A stretch of 49,350 bases of DNA from Opitutaceae bacterium. GTDB taxonomy: Bacteria; Verrucomicrobiota; Verrucomicrobiia; Opitutales; Opitutaceae. The translations under genes were made by a program, and so were the position numbers. The stretch is taken from the NCBI GenBank assembly GCA_017988885.1, contig JAGNQV010000004.1, forward strand, positions 1 to 49,350, given 5' to 3'. Position 1 is the stretch's first letter, and the number at the start of each line of letters is the position of its first letter. Positions 22,541 through 49,350 of this stretch are shown piece after piece. The notes beneath the pieces were generated by a model, which was not told the origin of the DNA, ran no database searches, and saw nothing but the letters and a program-made list of their open reading frames with translations.

Positions 22541-22710
22541 TTAGCCGGATCCATTCAATTCAACCACGAATGGACACCAATCAACACGAATGGAAAATGA
22601 GGCGAACAGAGCTTCAAACCGAACTTACTGAACGGTGCATCGGCTATGCACTATCCAAGCCCCGGCTTGCTTCGCGATTCGTGTAAATTCGTGTCCATTC
22701 GTGGTTCTCC
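22541..22710. repeat. 170-bp inverted-terminal repeat element, copy 1
   Basis: The element begins GCCGGATCCATTCAAT, continues CCACGAATGGACACC, and ends GTGTCCATTCGTGGTTCT, so its ends are inverted repeats. The interior has GAGGCGAACAGAGCT, CTGAACGG-GCATCGGCTATGCACTA and GGCT-GCTTCGCGATTCGTGT. A second copy of almost the whole sequence lies in opposite orientation at 47354-47524. It has no coding capacity and looks like a MITE- or REP-like dispersed element. Confidence 0.85.
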
Positions 22711-22755
22711 ACTGCATTATTTCGGCTTATCATCCTTGGCCTGATTTCCACCTTT

Positions 22756-34090: not shown

Positions 34091-34264
34091 GACGCAGAGG
34101 ATGGGCCGGTTGAGTGAAAATGCAAAAATACGGCGGTTAAGGCGTAACCTTTGTGAATTTTAGATGGAAGCGACCGCTCTGGCCTGCGCTTAGGTGAGTC
34201 ACCCAGCCAAAGGCTTGACCGAAGTGAGCGCCAAATCATGTTCCCCGATCGATTGCAGCCTAAG
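34091..34264. other. leader region upstream of the c-di-AMP riboswitch
   Basis: Divergent gap between the VOC and potassium-transporter genes. Two complementary pairs are visible, CTTAGG (about 34188) with CCTAAG (about 34257), and GCGCCAA with TTGGCGC. These could form alternative helices just 5' of the aptamer. No reading frame is convincing. Confidence 0.45.
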
Positions 34265-34400
34265 TTGGCGCCGCTTCCTCGGTGTCAGCGCGGGGGACCC
34301 AACTTCCCGGTTTAGCCGGGATGGGGCGAACGGCACCGGGTAACCGGAGCCAAGGCCACCTTCAGGCCGAGCCCGTCAGCTAACCTCGTCGGCATTGGGA
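34265..34400 (+). ncRNA. ydaO/yuaA (cyclic-di-AMP) riboswitch aptamer
   Basis: The conserved blocks occur in order: GCCGCTTCC, then GCGGGGGACCCAACTTCCC (about 34288-34307), GGGGCGAACGG (34323-34333), and the hallmark CCGTCAGCTAACCTCGTCGGC (34373-34393). These match the ydaO/yuaA family, in which GCGGGGGACCC, GGGGTGAA and CCGACAGCTAACCTCG are near invariant. Closing pairs GCCG...CGGC join the two ends. The family binds cyclic-di-AMP and generally lowers expression of K+ uptake or osmoprotection genes. The next gene is a TrkH/KtrB potassium transporter, the expected target. Confidence 0.93.
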
Positions 34401-34430
34401 AGGGCGATCCGCTGTCAACCCGCTTGGGCG

Positions 34431-44557: not shown

Positions 44558-47248
44558 TTAAGCCAGTCTGGCCAAGCTTAGCAGGACGGCGCGCCCCGCC
44601 GCGGCAAAAGCGGAGGGGTCGGAGCGTGCGGCCGCCTCGCTGGCGAGACCACACTGTGCCGCCAGGGCGGCGTCGCCAAGAAACAGGGCACTGGTGTGGA
44701 GATAATGAATCAGCCGGCGTGCGGCGGCGGTGTGGCCGGCATCGAGCGCCGCGGCGAGGTCGTGACCGATGCCCGGAAATTCCTTGCGGACGAGGGCGCA
44801 CACGTCCACCGCGGGGGTGCTGGAGCGCAGCACCGTGAAGACATCGGTCGTTGCCTTGGGCGCCAGCGCGGTGACGAGCGCATGTAACGACACGGGCTTT
44901 TCCAGGAAAAGTTCCATGCCGGCGGCGAGGGCGGCGGCGCGGGTGGCAGGAATCACCTCGGCGGAGCAGCCGATGAGCCGGGGCGGGTTGATGCCGGCGC
45001 TGAATTCGCGAGCGAGGGCGATGCCGTCGATGCCCGGCAGGTTGACATCGAGCACAACGACATCGAAGCGCTGCTGGGCGTGGGCGGCGCGGGCGGCAAG
45101 GCCATCGGCGACGGCCGTGACGTGGTGTCCAGCCTGACGGAGGGCTTCGGCGAGCACTTCACGCGCGGCGGTGTTGTCCTCGGCCAGAAGGATGGCGAGG
45201 CTCGCGACCGGCACGGCGGCAGGGGCGATCGCCGGTGTGACCGCGGGCGCGGGCGCCCGGGCGAGAGGGAAAGGCAGTTGCACGGTGAAGGTGGAGCCAC
45301 CGCCCGCCCGGTTCGCGGCGGCCACGTTGCCACCCATGAGTTCGCACAACCGGTGGACGAGGGCGAGACCGACGCCGGTGCCTTCGCGGGTAAAGGTATC
45401 GCCGGCGTCAAGCCGCGTAAAGAGCGTGAAGAGCCGGGAGATTTTTTCGGGAGGCAGGCCCGGCCCGGTGTCCTGCACACAGAAAGTGAATTGCGCCTGG
45501 CCGGGGGCGGTGGCACTGGCGGTGACATCCAAACGCACTGCGCCGGCGGTGGTATACTTGATGGCGTTGCCGAGGAGGTTGCCGAGGATTTGCCGCAGCC
45601 GGGCCTCGTCGCCGTGCAAACCGTCGGGCGTGCCGGGAGTGACGTTGAGGTGCAAGGCCAGGTGCTTGGCTGCGGCGAGCGGGCGCATGTTGTCCTCGAC
45701 GCAGGCGAGGGCGGTCGCGAGCGAAAAAGCCTGCGGCCGCAGACTGAAGTGGCCGGCCTCGATGGTGCCGAGGTCCAACAGGTCGTTGACGAGCCGGAGG
45801 AGCAGCCGGCCTTGCGCATCAATGGCGGCCGCGTGACGGGCGGCGACCGGTTCGGTGTGCAGGAGCTCGGCGCGGCCCAGAATGGTCTGCAGCGGCGTGC
45901 GCATTTCGTGGCTGAGAAAAGCAAGGAACTCGGTCTTGGCCCGGTTGGCCGCCTCGGTGCGCTCAATCTGCAGGGTCCGCCCGGCGTCCACGGCCTGTTG
46001 CCAGGACAAGACCAGGCCGCCGGCAATGAAGATGGAAAAGATGACGCTGATCCAGGCGGTGGCGCGGCGTGCGGCATCGAGCCGGTCGTGCCACCAAGCC
46101 AGGGAATATTCCAATCCGACCCAAACGGAGGGTGCGCTGGCTCCCTCCGCATTGACCGGTGCGACGGCGGTCACCAGCGGCCATTGGTCGGCCGCCGTGC
46201 CCACGGCAAAAAAAGCGCGGCCCAAAGGAATTTGCCTGAGCTCATCCGCGGTGGCCGGGCGGTGGTAGCGAATCTGGTTTTCAGCGGTCTCAGGCGCTTC
46301 GGGTCTGCCGCGGGCGAGTGAGTAAATGTGGCCGTCCTGCAAGCGCCAGACTTGGACGACGCGCAGCCCCGCATCCGTGGCAAACTCGGCCAGCAGCCGC
46401 GTGCGGAGTTGATGGCTGGCTTCGGTCGAGAGCGTTTCGCCACGGGCGAGCGCGAGGACGGCGGGATGAAGGGCGAGTTTTGCGGCCCGCTGACCCAGGC
46501 GCTGGTGCCAGGTTTGTTCGGTGCGGCGGATGTTGGCCTCTGCGATGCGTGGATTGAACAGAGGAATCATGATGAGCAGCACGGCAAAGCCCAGCGTCAG
46601 CCGGCTGCGCGCGGCGGTTGCCCACATCCCGGCGACGGCCAATCCGATCACGATCAACCAAGGCACGGCGGTGCGCAGCGGATCCCACTCCGGCGCGACC
46701 GGTCGTGGGCCGAAGAGCCAGCCCGTCAGCATCAGCGCCACGGCCATAATTTGCAGGGTGAGCCGCGCAAACCAAGGCCGGTGGGGGGAGCGCCGGATCC
46801 AGCACCAGAGCTGCCAGCCGGCCGTCACGCTGATCAGCACGGGCACCACGCTGCCGCCCCACAAGACAATGGCTGAGCAGATCGTCGCGCTGACGCCAGC
46901 GGGCAGAAACGGGCCCATGATCATGCCACCCAAGGTAACGAGGAAAGGGAGATGGGTTGTCACCGGCCAGCGGCGGCCGTGCAGGGCGGCGTGCAGGGCG
47001 CGCGCACTTTCCCACAAAGCGGCGAATTTGACGAAGGCGAGCAGTGCGAGCACCTGTGCGCTGGTTGCACTGCCATCGACAAAAAAACGGCTGAGGGCCT
47101 CGAAGGCCGATTGCACTGCACCGAACAGCACCAGCATCATGGCCGCGCGCCGGTTCAGGGCGCCGGGCAGCCCCGCGCCCAGCCAGCCGATCATGGCGTT
47201 CACGATCCAGCCGAGACCGGTGAGGAAAACGAGATATTCGTGCTGCAT
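44558..47248 (-). CDS. hybrid sensor histidine kinase (7-TM-like sensor, HisKA, REC, Hpt)
   Basis: An 896-residue hybrid kinase. About seven hydrophobic helices occupy residues 1-235, followed by a periplasmic-type segment (about 236-395) and another helix (398-416). HisKA has H447 in FLAFLSHEMRTP; HATPase has the N-box NLLGNAIKYT (557-566) and G-boxes DTGPGLP and GTGVGLAL. A receiver follows: LLAEDN (687-692), phosphoacceptor D734 in VVLDVNLPGIDG and K784 in FLEKPVSL. The C-terminus is an Hpt-like domain with H848 in HYLHTSALFLG. The complete phosphorelay (H-D-H) would feed the NarL/FixJ-type regulator at 47521, the next gene on the same strand. Confidence 0.92.
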   Translation of the reverse strand: MQHEYLVFLTGLGWIVNAMIGWLGAGLPGALNRRAAMMLVLFGAVQSAFEALSRFFVDGSATSAQVLALLAFVKFAALWESARALHAALHGRRWPVTTHLPFLVTLGGMIMGPFLPAGVSATICSAIVLWGGSVVPVLISVTAGWQLWCWIRRSPHRPWFARLTLQIMAVALMLTGWLFGPRPVAPEWDPLRTAVPWLIVIGLAVAGMWATAARSRLTLGFAVLLIMIPLFNPRIAEANIRRTEQTWHQRLGQRAAKLALHPAVLALARGETLSTEASHQLRTRLLAEFATDAGLRVVQVWRLQDGHIYSLARGRPEAPETAENQIRYHRPATADELRQIPLGRAFFAVGTAADQWPLVTAVAPVNAEGASAPSVWVGLEYSLAWWHDRLDAARRATAWISVIFSIFIAGGLVLSWQQAVDAGRTLQIERTEAANRAKTEFLAFLSHEMRTPLQTILGRAELLHTEPVAARHAAAIDAQGRLLLRLVNDLLDLGTIEAGHFSLRPQAFSLATALACVEDNMRPLAAAKHLALHLNVTPGTPDGLHGDEARLRQILGNLLGNAIKYTTAGAVRLDVTASATAPGQAQFTFCVQDTGPGLPPEKISRLFTLFTRLDAGDTFTREGTGVGLALVHRLCELMGGNVAAANRAGGGSTFTVQLPFPLARAPAPAVTPAIAPAAVPVASLAILLAEDNTAAREVLAEALRQAGHHVTAVADGLAARAAHAQQRFDVVVLDVNLPGIDGIALAREFSAGINPPRLIGCSAEVIPATRAAALAAGMELFLEKPVSLHALVTALAPKATTDVFTVLRSSTPAVDVCALVRKEFPGIGHDLAAALDAGHTAAARRLIHYLHTSALFLGDAALAAQCGLASEAAARSDPSAFAAAGRAVLLSLARLA

Positions 47249-47520
47249 CGAGGAAGTGGCGGCAGGCGGATATTACCTTAATCGCGACCGTCGCGCGTCA
47301 GGCGGGTGCCCTGATCCGGGCTTAGGGGCAGCCCTTAGCCGGAACCATGCAGCGAAGAACCACGAATGGACACGAATGGACACGAATCGCGAAGCGAGCC
47401 GGGGGCTTGGCTAGTGCATAGCCGATGCGCCGTTCAGTGAGTTCGGTTGGCAGCTCTGTTCGCCTCATTTCCATTCAGGTTCATTGGGGTCCATGCGTGG
47501 TGGGATTGAATGGATCCGGC
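47249..47520. other. intergenic region with operator-like dyad and repeat element
   Basis: A 272-bp gap between regulator and kinase. It holds the near-palindrome at 47321-47338, 73 bp upstream of the kinase ATG, and the second copy of the 170-bp repeat (47354-47524). Confidence 0.7.
47321..47338. promoter_or_regulatory. candidate response-regulator binding site, copy 1
   Basis: CTTAGGGGCAGCCCTTAG is a near-palindrome upstream of the histidine kinase. Its reverse complement begins CTAAGGGCTGCCC, matching the site at 48261-48276. Spacing to the start codon (about 73 bp) is almost the same at both genes. Confidence 0.6.
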
Positions 47521-47524
47521 TTAG
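47354..47524. repeat. 170-bp inverted-terminal repeat element, copy 2
   Basis: Reverse orientation to the copy at 22541-22710. Conserved runs include GATTCGTGTCCATTCGTG (as read on the minus strand), GAGGCGAACAGAGCT, GCATCGGCTATGCACTA and GCCGGATCCATTCAAT. It runs into the last codon of the response regulator gene, so insertion occurred at its very end. Confidence 0.85.
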
Positions 47525-48195
47525 CCAGTGGCCGACTCCTGTGCCCAAGTGGCGGCCCGGGCGACCAGCTCGGTATGGGTTTGGAGCCCGAGCTTGTTTT
47601 TGATGTTTTCGCGGTGGGTCTCGATGGTCTTGAAGCTGACGTTAAGTTTCTCGGCGATATCGCGGGTGGCGAGACCGAGGCCGACCAGGCGAAACACCTG
47701 TAACTCGCGGTCGGTCAGCCGGGTTTCAGCACCGGCTGGCTGGCGGGCATGGCCGGTGAGACCGCCAATCACGGTGGCGGCGATGCGCGGCGACACGGCA
47801 ATCCCGCCGGCGGCCACATCGCGCACGGCCCGGAAAAGCGTGTCCACCGGCTCCCGTTTCATGACGTAGCCATGCGCACCGGCGCGCAGGCAGCGTTCGG
47901 CGTAAATATCCTCGGGTTGCAGCGAAAACACGACGATGCGCAGGGCCGGCACGAGGGTGACGAGGTCCTTGATGAGGGCCAGGCCGTCGTCTTCTTGCAT
48001 CATGAGGTCCATCAGCAGCAAGTCCGGCGGTTGTCGCTCGATGGCGGTGCGGGTTTCACGGGCGGAAGCCGCGCCGCCGATGACGACAAAATCCGGTTGC
48101 TGCTCCAGCAGGGTGACCAAGCCTTCGCGCATCACCGGATGATCCTCGGCTACGAGCACGGTCAGACGGGGCGGAACGTTGGACGGTTCGATCAT
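47521..48195 (-). CDS. NarL/FixJ family response regulator
   Basis: A 224-residue regulator. The receiver has the acidic pair in LVAEDHPVMREG (17-18), D63 in LLLMDLMMQEDDG and the Lys in GYVMKREPVDTL. The C-terminal LuxR-type HTH is LTDRELQVFRLVGLGLATRDIAEKLNVSFKTIETHRENIKNKLGL. It is expected to receive phosphate from the kinase at 44558. Both genes have the same near-palindromic sequence about 70 bp upstream, so it may autoregulate both. The gene ends within the repeat element at 47354. Confidence 0.93.
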   Translation of the reverse strand: MIEPSNVPPRLTVLVAEDHPVMREGLVTLLEQQPDFVVIGGAASARETRTAIERQPPDLLLMDLMMQEDDGLALIKDLVTLVPALRIVVFSLQPEDIYAERCLRAGAHGYVMKREPVDTLFRAVRDVAAGGIAVSPRIAATVIGGLTGHARQPAGAETRLTDRELQVFRLVGLGLATRDIAEKLNVSFKTIETHRENIKNKLGLQTHTELVARAATWAQESATG

Positions 48196-48260
48196 TGCTG
48201 GCGGGGTAAGTGCAGCAAGTCGGTTGCATTGACGGGTCGCAAGTTTTTATCCGGCCTAAG

Positions 48261-48276
48261 CTAAGGGCTGCCCTTA
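48261..48276. promoter_or_regulatory. candidate response-regulator binding site, copy 2
   Basis: CTAAGGGCTGCCCTTA contains the perfect dyad TAAGGGC-T-GCCCTTA (7-bp arms). It lies 66 bp upstream of the regulator ATG and about 89 bp upstream of the secreted protein at 48365. Flanking CCTAAG and ACTAAGG repeats add further half-sites. LuxR-type regulators often use such inverted repeats. Confidence 0.62.
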
Positions 48277-48364
48277 CTAAGGTTTAAGGGTCTGCACCCG
48301 ATGCCGATGGCGGCCGATCTGCTAGACTGGGCATCGCATAGCAACTGCCGGCCGGGTATTTATC

Positions 48365-49350
48365 ATGAAAAACATTCTCCACGGTTCACTGGTCTCCGCA
48401 ATCTTCACCCTGGCCCTTGTTTGTCCCCCGGTCCGGGCGGCCATCGTAGTCACCACCGACTATCGGGATAGCGCGCCGGCCTATGCGGTGGCTCAAGATG
48501 ATTTGTTTCAAACGCACTTAAAGGGACTGGAGCTCGAGGGGGATTTATTCGATCGCCATATGGACATCAATGAACTGGTGGACGGCCAGTTTGGCGATTT
48601 GGGGGCGGGCTCTACTGCGGGCACCGCAGCCGTGGCCGCAGGCGGGGTGTTGATCTTCGTCTTGAATTTGGATGAGAGTCCGGAGGGTTATGACCTGACG
48701 GCGCTGCGCTCCTTTGCCGGATGGGACAGTAGCGGGGATGGACAGGAATACACCGTCGAATACGCCACCGTTGATACTCCCAAAGACTTCCAGACCTTGA
48801 TAACCGTGGGGCCATTCAATCCCGGCTATACAAACAACAACAGTAGCACGCGCGTGACGTTGACCGACAGCGAGGGAATGCTCATGCACCGCGCGGCGGT
48901 CATCCGGATCACCTTCACTGCATTTGAGAATGGAGCGACTTATTACCGCGAGTTCGATGCCATTGGGGCCCCGGCTTCGGCGGCCACCGCCCAGGTGCCG
49001 CAATTGCTCAACTACCAGGGTCGCGTAGTGGTTGGCTCGAGTAATTTCAACGGCACCGGACAGTTCAAATTTTCGCTGGTGGATGGCGGAGGCAAGATGA
49101 CCTATTGGAGCAACGACGGCAGCGGGCTGGGCGGTGAACCGCCGGATACCGCCGTTGCACTACCAGTGGTGAACGGGCTTTATTCCGTCCTGCTCGGTGA
49201 TACCGCGTTGGGCAATATGCTGGGCATTCCGGCGCAGGTTTTCACCCATGCCGACGTGCGCTTGCGTGTGTGGTTCAACGATGGCGTCAACGATTTTCAA
49301 TTACTCTCGCCCGATCAGCGCATCGCCGCCGTGGGCTACGCGATGGTGGC
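48365..49350 (+). CDS. secreted surface-type protein, C-terminally cut by the window end
   Basis: An open frame of at least 328 codons running off the right edge. A signal peptide (MKNILHGSLVSAIFTLALV, cleavage probably after VRA) is followed by a beta-rich domain with VLNLDESPEGYDLTALRSFAGWDSSGDG and YYREFDAIGAP. After residue 215 comes PQLLNYQGRVVVGSSNFNGTGQFKFSLVD, and later VNGLYSVLLGD and RIAAVGYAMVA. The latter segments match the 'NYQGR...FSL...G-Y-VLLG...AVPYA' module of tail-fibre-like or collagen-like surface proteins in Verrucomicrobia and Planctomycetes. Function is probably cell-surface structure; this is inference. It is divergent from the response regulator and may be under its control. 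Confidence 0.75.
   Translation, partial: MKNILHGSLVSAIFTLALVCPPVRAAIVVTTDYRDSAPAYAVAQDDLFQTHLKGLELEGDLFDRHMDINELVDGQFGDLGAGSTAGTAAVAAGGVLIFVLNLDESPEGYDLTALRSFAGWDSSGDGQEYTVEYATVDTPKDFQTLITVGPFNPGYTNNNSSTRVTLTDSEGMLMHRAAVIRITFTAFENGATYYREFDAIGAPASAATAQVPQLLNYQGRVVVGSSNFNGTGQFKFSLVDGGGKMTYWSNDGSGLGGEPPDTAVALPVVNGLYSVLLGDTALGNMLGIPAQVFTHADVRLRVWFNDGVNDFQLLSPDQRIAAVGYAMV

Follow-up and report, generated by a model that had tools for sequence, protein, structure and literature searches.

Two-component loci that are autoregulated through inverted-repeat operators form a general class. In the Escherichia coli NarX/NarL system, the activating positions of NarL at the ogt promoter include -67.5 as well as -44.5 and -77.5 (PMC7419079). 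A further protein that bears on the present locus is SCO4226, a nickel-binding protein of Streptomyces that belongs to PF14026 (PMC4186839).

The locus described here lies at the end of a 49,350-nucleotide stretch of DNA from an Opitutaceae bacterium (the window), where a minus-strand gene for a hybrid histidine kinase of 896 amino acids with HisKA, HATPase_c and receiver domains (44558–47248) is followed along the contig by a response regulator gene (47521–48195, minus strand) and by a plus-strand gene for a secreted protein that is cut by the contig end (48365–49350). The regulator, presumed from its domains and co-occurrence to be the binder of the operator, is of the NarL/FixJ (LuxR) type, with a receiver (Response_reg, 3e-23) followed by a GerE domain (2.9e-15), and scores 123.7 bits against the NarL orthologue model NF007935, under the curated equivalog cut-off of 250. 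The window also contains a c-di-AMP riboswitch (34247–34409, plus strand; RF00379, 59.9 bits).

The resemblance to E. coli NarL at ogt (PMC7419079) extends from the receiver and GerE architecture to a pair of sites that precede the -10 box, one of them near -44 and the other farther upstream; the centres, however, lie here at about -43 and -67, the half-sites read TAGGG/TCAGG, and the sites stay within the regulator's cassette, whereas those of NarL are genome-wide. As in autoregulated two-component loci, the sites assigned to the regulator lie within its locus and are directed at its kinase, but the predicted conserved targets here are the kinase plus a variable cargo, and a distinct conserved element lies upstream of the regulator gene itself. 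A literature search, with most subscription journals outside its scope, found no such operator described for this bacterial group.

A double palindrome upstream of two promoters

The first-pass annotation pointed to a near-palindrome in two copies, each about 70 bp upstream of one of the two-component genes, with the second copy also facing the secreted protein gene at 48365. Both copies are present, 1–2 bp away from where they had been placed: the dyad core reads TAGGGGCAGCCCTTA at 47323–47337 on the plus strand and TAAGGGCTGCCCTTA at 48262–48276 (plus), and a 17-mer is common to the two (47323–47339, minus; 48260–48276, plus). The distances agree with the earlier description, the kinase start (47248) being 75 bp from its copy, and the starts of the regulator (48195) and secreted protein (48365) genes 67 and 89 bp, respectively, from the second copy. 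In the proposed genome-wide search, TAAGGGCNGCCCTTA occurred with no more than one mismatch only at these two sites in the whole 3.17 Mb genome; a scan of the 49 kb window alone with three mismatches is unremarkable (2 sites against 1.15 expected). Exact-motif scans of 200 family genomes and of a collection of genome contigs gave scattered, chance-like matches and were set aside; a strict 15-mer demands too close a match, and the paralogue has diverged from it.

Each palindrome is the distal half of an element larger than first described, i.e. a 45-bp double palindrome with the consensus CTAGGGGnnnCCCCTA-n8-TCAGGGn6CCCGATGC, followed 18–19 bp downstream by a TANNNT -10 box. In the kinase promoter, read on the minus strand, the distal palindrome TAAGGGCTGCCCCTA (47323–47337), which is kept in the orthologues, is followed by the proximal palindrome TCAGGGCACCCGCCTGA (47298–47314), centred near -43, and by the -10 box TAATAT (47270–47275), 19 bp past the element. 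In the secreted-protein promoter, on the plus strand, the corresponding features are the distal palindrome TAAGGGCTGCCCTTA at the position given above, the proximal palindrome TAAGGGTCTGCACCCGA (48285–48301) and the -10 box TAGACT (48323–48328). The two promoters of the window point at the kinase and at the secreted protein, and the direction of the second -10 box bears out the earlier suggestion that the surface protein gene is faced by the element.

The genome encodes a second such cassette on another contig, with a regulator paralogue (G000:C186) 73% identical to the window regulator, followed by a kinase and preceded by a secreted protein of 1198 amino acids with Kelch repeats; the double palindrome occupies the two equivalent positions. 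Taken together, the promoter regions of the two cassettes, four in all, align without gaps from the operator through the -10 box, with TARGGGnnnnnCCCYTA as the distal palindrome, TCAGG...CCYGA as the proximal one and then the TANNNT box. Across 24 sites, the proximal palindrome is invariant at T26, G29, C39, G41, A42 and G44 and the distal one at G6 and C14; a TANNNT box lies at offset 18 or 19 in 20 of the 24, compared with a background of 0.28% per position. Provided that TANNNT spans -12 to -7, the palindrome centres fall at about -43 and -67; with the start inferred in this manner, the proximal centre, the fixed spacing of the box and the lack of a good -35 box are those of an activator-dependent (class II-like) promoter.

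The reading preferred here, with a probability of roughly 85%, is that the element is the double operator of the neighbouring NarL-type regulator and activates the kinase and secreted-protein promoters. The regulator encoded between the two reported palindromes would, once phosphorylated, recognize double operators of which each palindrome forms the distal half; two regulator dimers would bind, at about -67 (TAGGGGnnnCCCCTA) and at about -43 (TCAGGG...CCCGA), and would recruit RNA polymerase to promoters that possess a -10 box and no good -35 box. In the window, the cognate hybrid kinase, the predicted target of the first operator, would be activated, with positive feedback on signalling, together with the secreted protein. 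The identity of the binder, activation as opposed to repression and the dependence on phosphorylation are what we infer, and a single protein is assumed to bind both palindromes despite their different spacing (15 and 17 bp). Activation is read from promoter geometry, and a repressor could sit at the same place. The regulator, phosphorylated or not, would then block RNA polymerase at both promoters, and the proximal palindrome, which extends to about -35, could indeed occlude sigma region 4; we consider this unlikely, given that the double site, ending upstream of -32, in every case leaves the -10 box and the start free, and that the absence of a good -35 box is usual in activator-dependent promoters.

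Linkage of the element to one regulator subfamily

A profile built from the four sites of the two cassettes finds only those four as significant matches in the own genome (E-values between 4e-17 and 3e-15, the runner-up being at 0.15), which is about 82% complete, so that additional sites may lie in the missing part. Regulators of the same subfamily (51–73% identity) are encoded in 17 other genomes of the family; they form a supported clade of their own (100/100) apart from other LuxR-type regulators, and hardly vary in their recognition-helix region, KT[VI]E[AT]HRENIKNKL, in which the outgroup regulators differ. The comparison with related genomes that had been suggested at the outset was made on 19 orthologous loci (L160–L178; 8–16 kb each) and came out in favour of the operator: in 18 of the 19, the best match of the 45-column matrix derived from the four own-genome sites only lies no farther than about 235 bp from the regulator gene (binomial p about 7e-25), compared with 0–1 of 19 for column-shuffled matrices. 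Conversely, a matrix trained without the own genome assigns scores of 39.3 and 29.3 to the window sites, the next best score in the window being 5.7.

When a profile of 24 sites (model R2) is run against 252 genomes of the family, matches with E<1e-6 appear in exactly the 18 genomes that encode the regulator subfamily, always beside the regulator; this agreement is partly circular, the R2 sites having been taken from those loci, which is not the case for the four-site matrix test. No additional strong match was found in a class-wide sample of 384 genomes, and the weak R2 matches in other genomes (E 3e-4 to 0.01) are at chance level. One match in another genome (G014; E 5e-6), 41 bp past a 44%-identical regulator, is suggestive of a true outlier. 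With strong matches confined to the vicinity of this subfamily across the 252 genomes, the operator is local to its cassette. The element itself, its spacing, orientation and conservation and its strict linkage to the regulator are direct readings of the sequences, and on these grounds it behaves as the cognate, cassette-local operator of the regulator.

Alternatively, some other transcription factor might use the sites to co-regulate the cassette, with the neighbouring regulator a mere passenger. Binding of the regulator to the sites is predicted from sequence, and the kinase is unlinked in about half of the 21 loci examined, such that the regulator–kinase pairing is not universal, as might be expected under that explanation. 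Exact co-occurrence of site and subfamily across 252 genomes argues against it, and so does the lack of any strong site away from the regulator, where another factor should have more, leaving it very improbable.

The adjoining dispersed repeat

Between the stop codon of the regulator gene and the kinase operator, outside the latter, lies a 183-bp dispersed repeat with CCGG-type ends (47338–47520; ACCACGAATGGACACGAAT...). It has four further long copies (window 22544–22726; G000:C45, C97 and C62), and the genome holds about 30 matches to it, full-length or partial. The copy next to the operator has a 7-bp direct repeat, CTTAGCC, on both sides; target-site duplications were also looked for at the other copies and were inconsistent. 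The repeat seems to have been inserted at the edge of the operator, sparing both the operator and the regulator stop codon, because removal of one 186-bp unit in silico makes the stop codon TAA part of the operator, in the same columns as the stop codon TAG of the paralogue.

The palindrome is absent from the other copies of this repeat, which speaks against its origin in a dispersed repeat; the observation that the first-pass annotation had named as fatal to its reading, a motif scattered over the genome or belonging to a repeat family, was accordingly not made, the adjoining repeat being separate from the palindrome. It is hardly credible that the palindromes act at the RNA level, as a terminator of the regulator gene or as attenuator hairpins, or that they come from a repeat family, even though one copy lies just past the regulator gene, is G+C-rich and palindromic and adjoins the repeat, considering that there is no T-run, that the elements, with fixed bases and spacing, lie upstream of a -10 box and occur either way round with respect to the regulator, and that the other repeat copies lack the palindrome.

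Predicted targets of the operator and control of the regulator gene

The genes that the operator faces vary among the loci, with start codons typically 30–75 bp past the element. Sites behind the regulator gene face the kinase directly in the window, its paralogue, L162 and L163, and face a membrane protein, mostly of about 440 amino acids, with the kinase further on, in L160, L161, L169, L170 and L172; in L168, the first frame behind the operator resembles a methyltransferase by eye. The membrane protein gene is the first gene behind the operator in the loci that have it. Members of this family, mostly of 410–690 amino acids, are encoded between regulator and kinase in L160, L161, L169, L170, L172 and L174, and the one member scanned had no Pfam match.

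In front of the regulator, the site is directed at a secreted protein in the window, the paralogue, L162 and probably L163, and at a lipoprotein-like protein in L167. The N-terminal and middle domains of the secreted protein (window 48365–49350; L085 9225–12821) are found separately in other family members. The secreted protein was considered as a conserved partner and rejected, its two halves occurring apart elsewhere, unlinked to regulators of this subfamily.

In nine loci (L164–L166, L171, L173, L175–L178), none of which has a linked kinase, the operator faces a gene for a 91-amino-acid protein; the two of these proteins that were scanned are both similar to the Streptomyces protein SCO4226 (PF14026/DUF4242; 1e-24 and 6e-28). 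The gene is absent from both cassettes of the window's genome. A second, exported SCO4226-like paralogue follows in several of these loci.

We lean towards the view that the regulator and its double operator make up a portable, cassette-local switch, in which one dedicated operator-promoter keeps to within about 235 bp of the regulator gene, on one side of it or the other, and controls an interchangeable cargo, i.e. the kinase, the membrane protein, secreted proteins or SCO4226-like proteins.

The original proposal of an operator of the LuxR-type regulator within an autoregulated circuit is supported for the operator role, given the strict co-occurrence, but the sequences lend no support to control of the regulator's own gene: there is no -10 box at a conserved distance on the regulator side, and in six or seven of the orthologous cassettes the regulator lacks an upstream site. 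In 18 of 21 loci, a conserved (G/A)CTTG(C/T) element is found about 25–75 bp before the regulator start (about 48216–48250 in the window), wherever the operator lies and even where the sole operator sits behind the regulator gene. The conserved circuit is read as feedback via the kinase, with the regulator gene probably transcribed from a promoter of its own; the divergent operator could affect the regulator gene as well.

The locus offers a concrete regulator–operator pair, open to testing, in a family for which no such operator was found described. One regulator subfamily ties together an unstudied kinase, large secreted proteins and SCO4226-like proteins, and provides an example of a local operator that is retained while the genes it would control are swapped.
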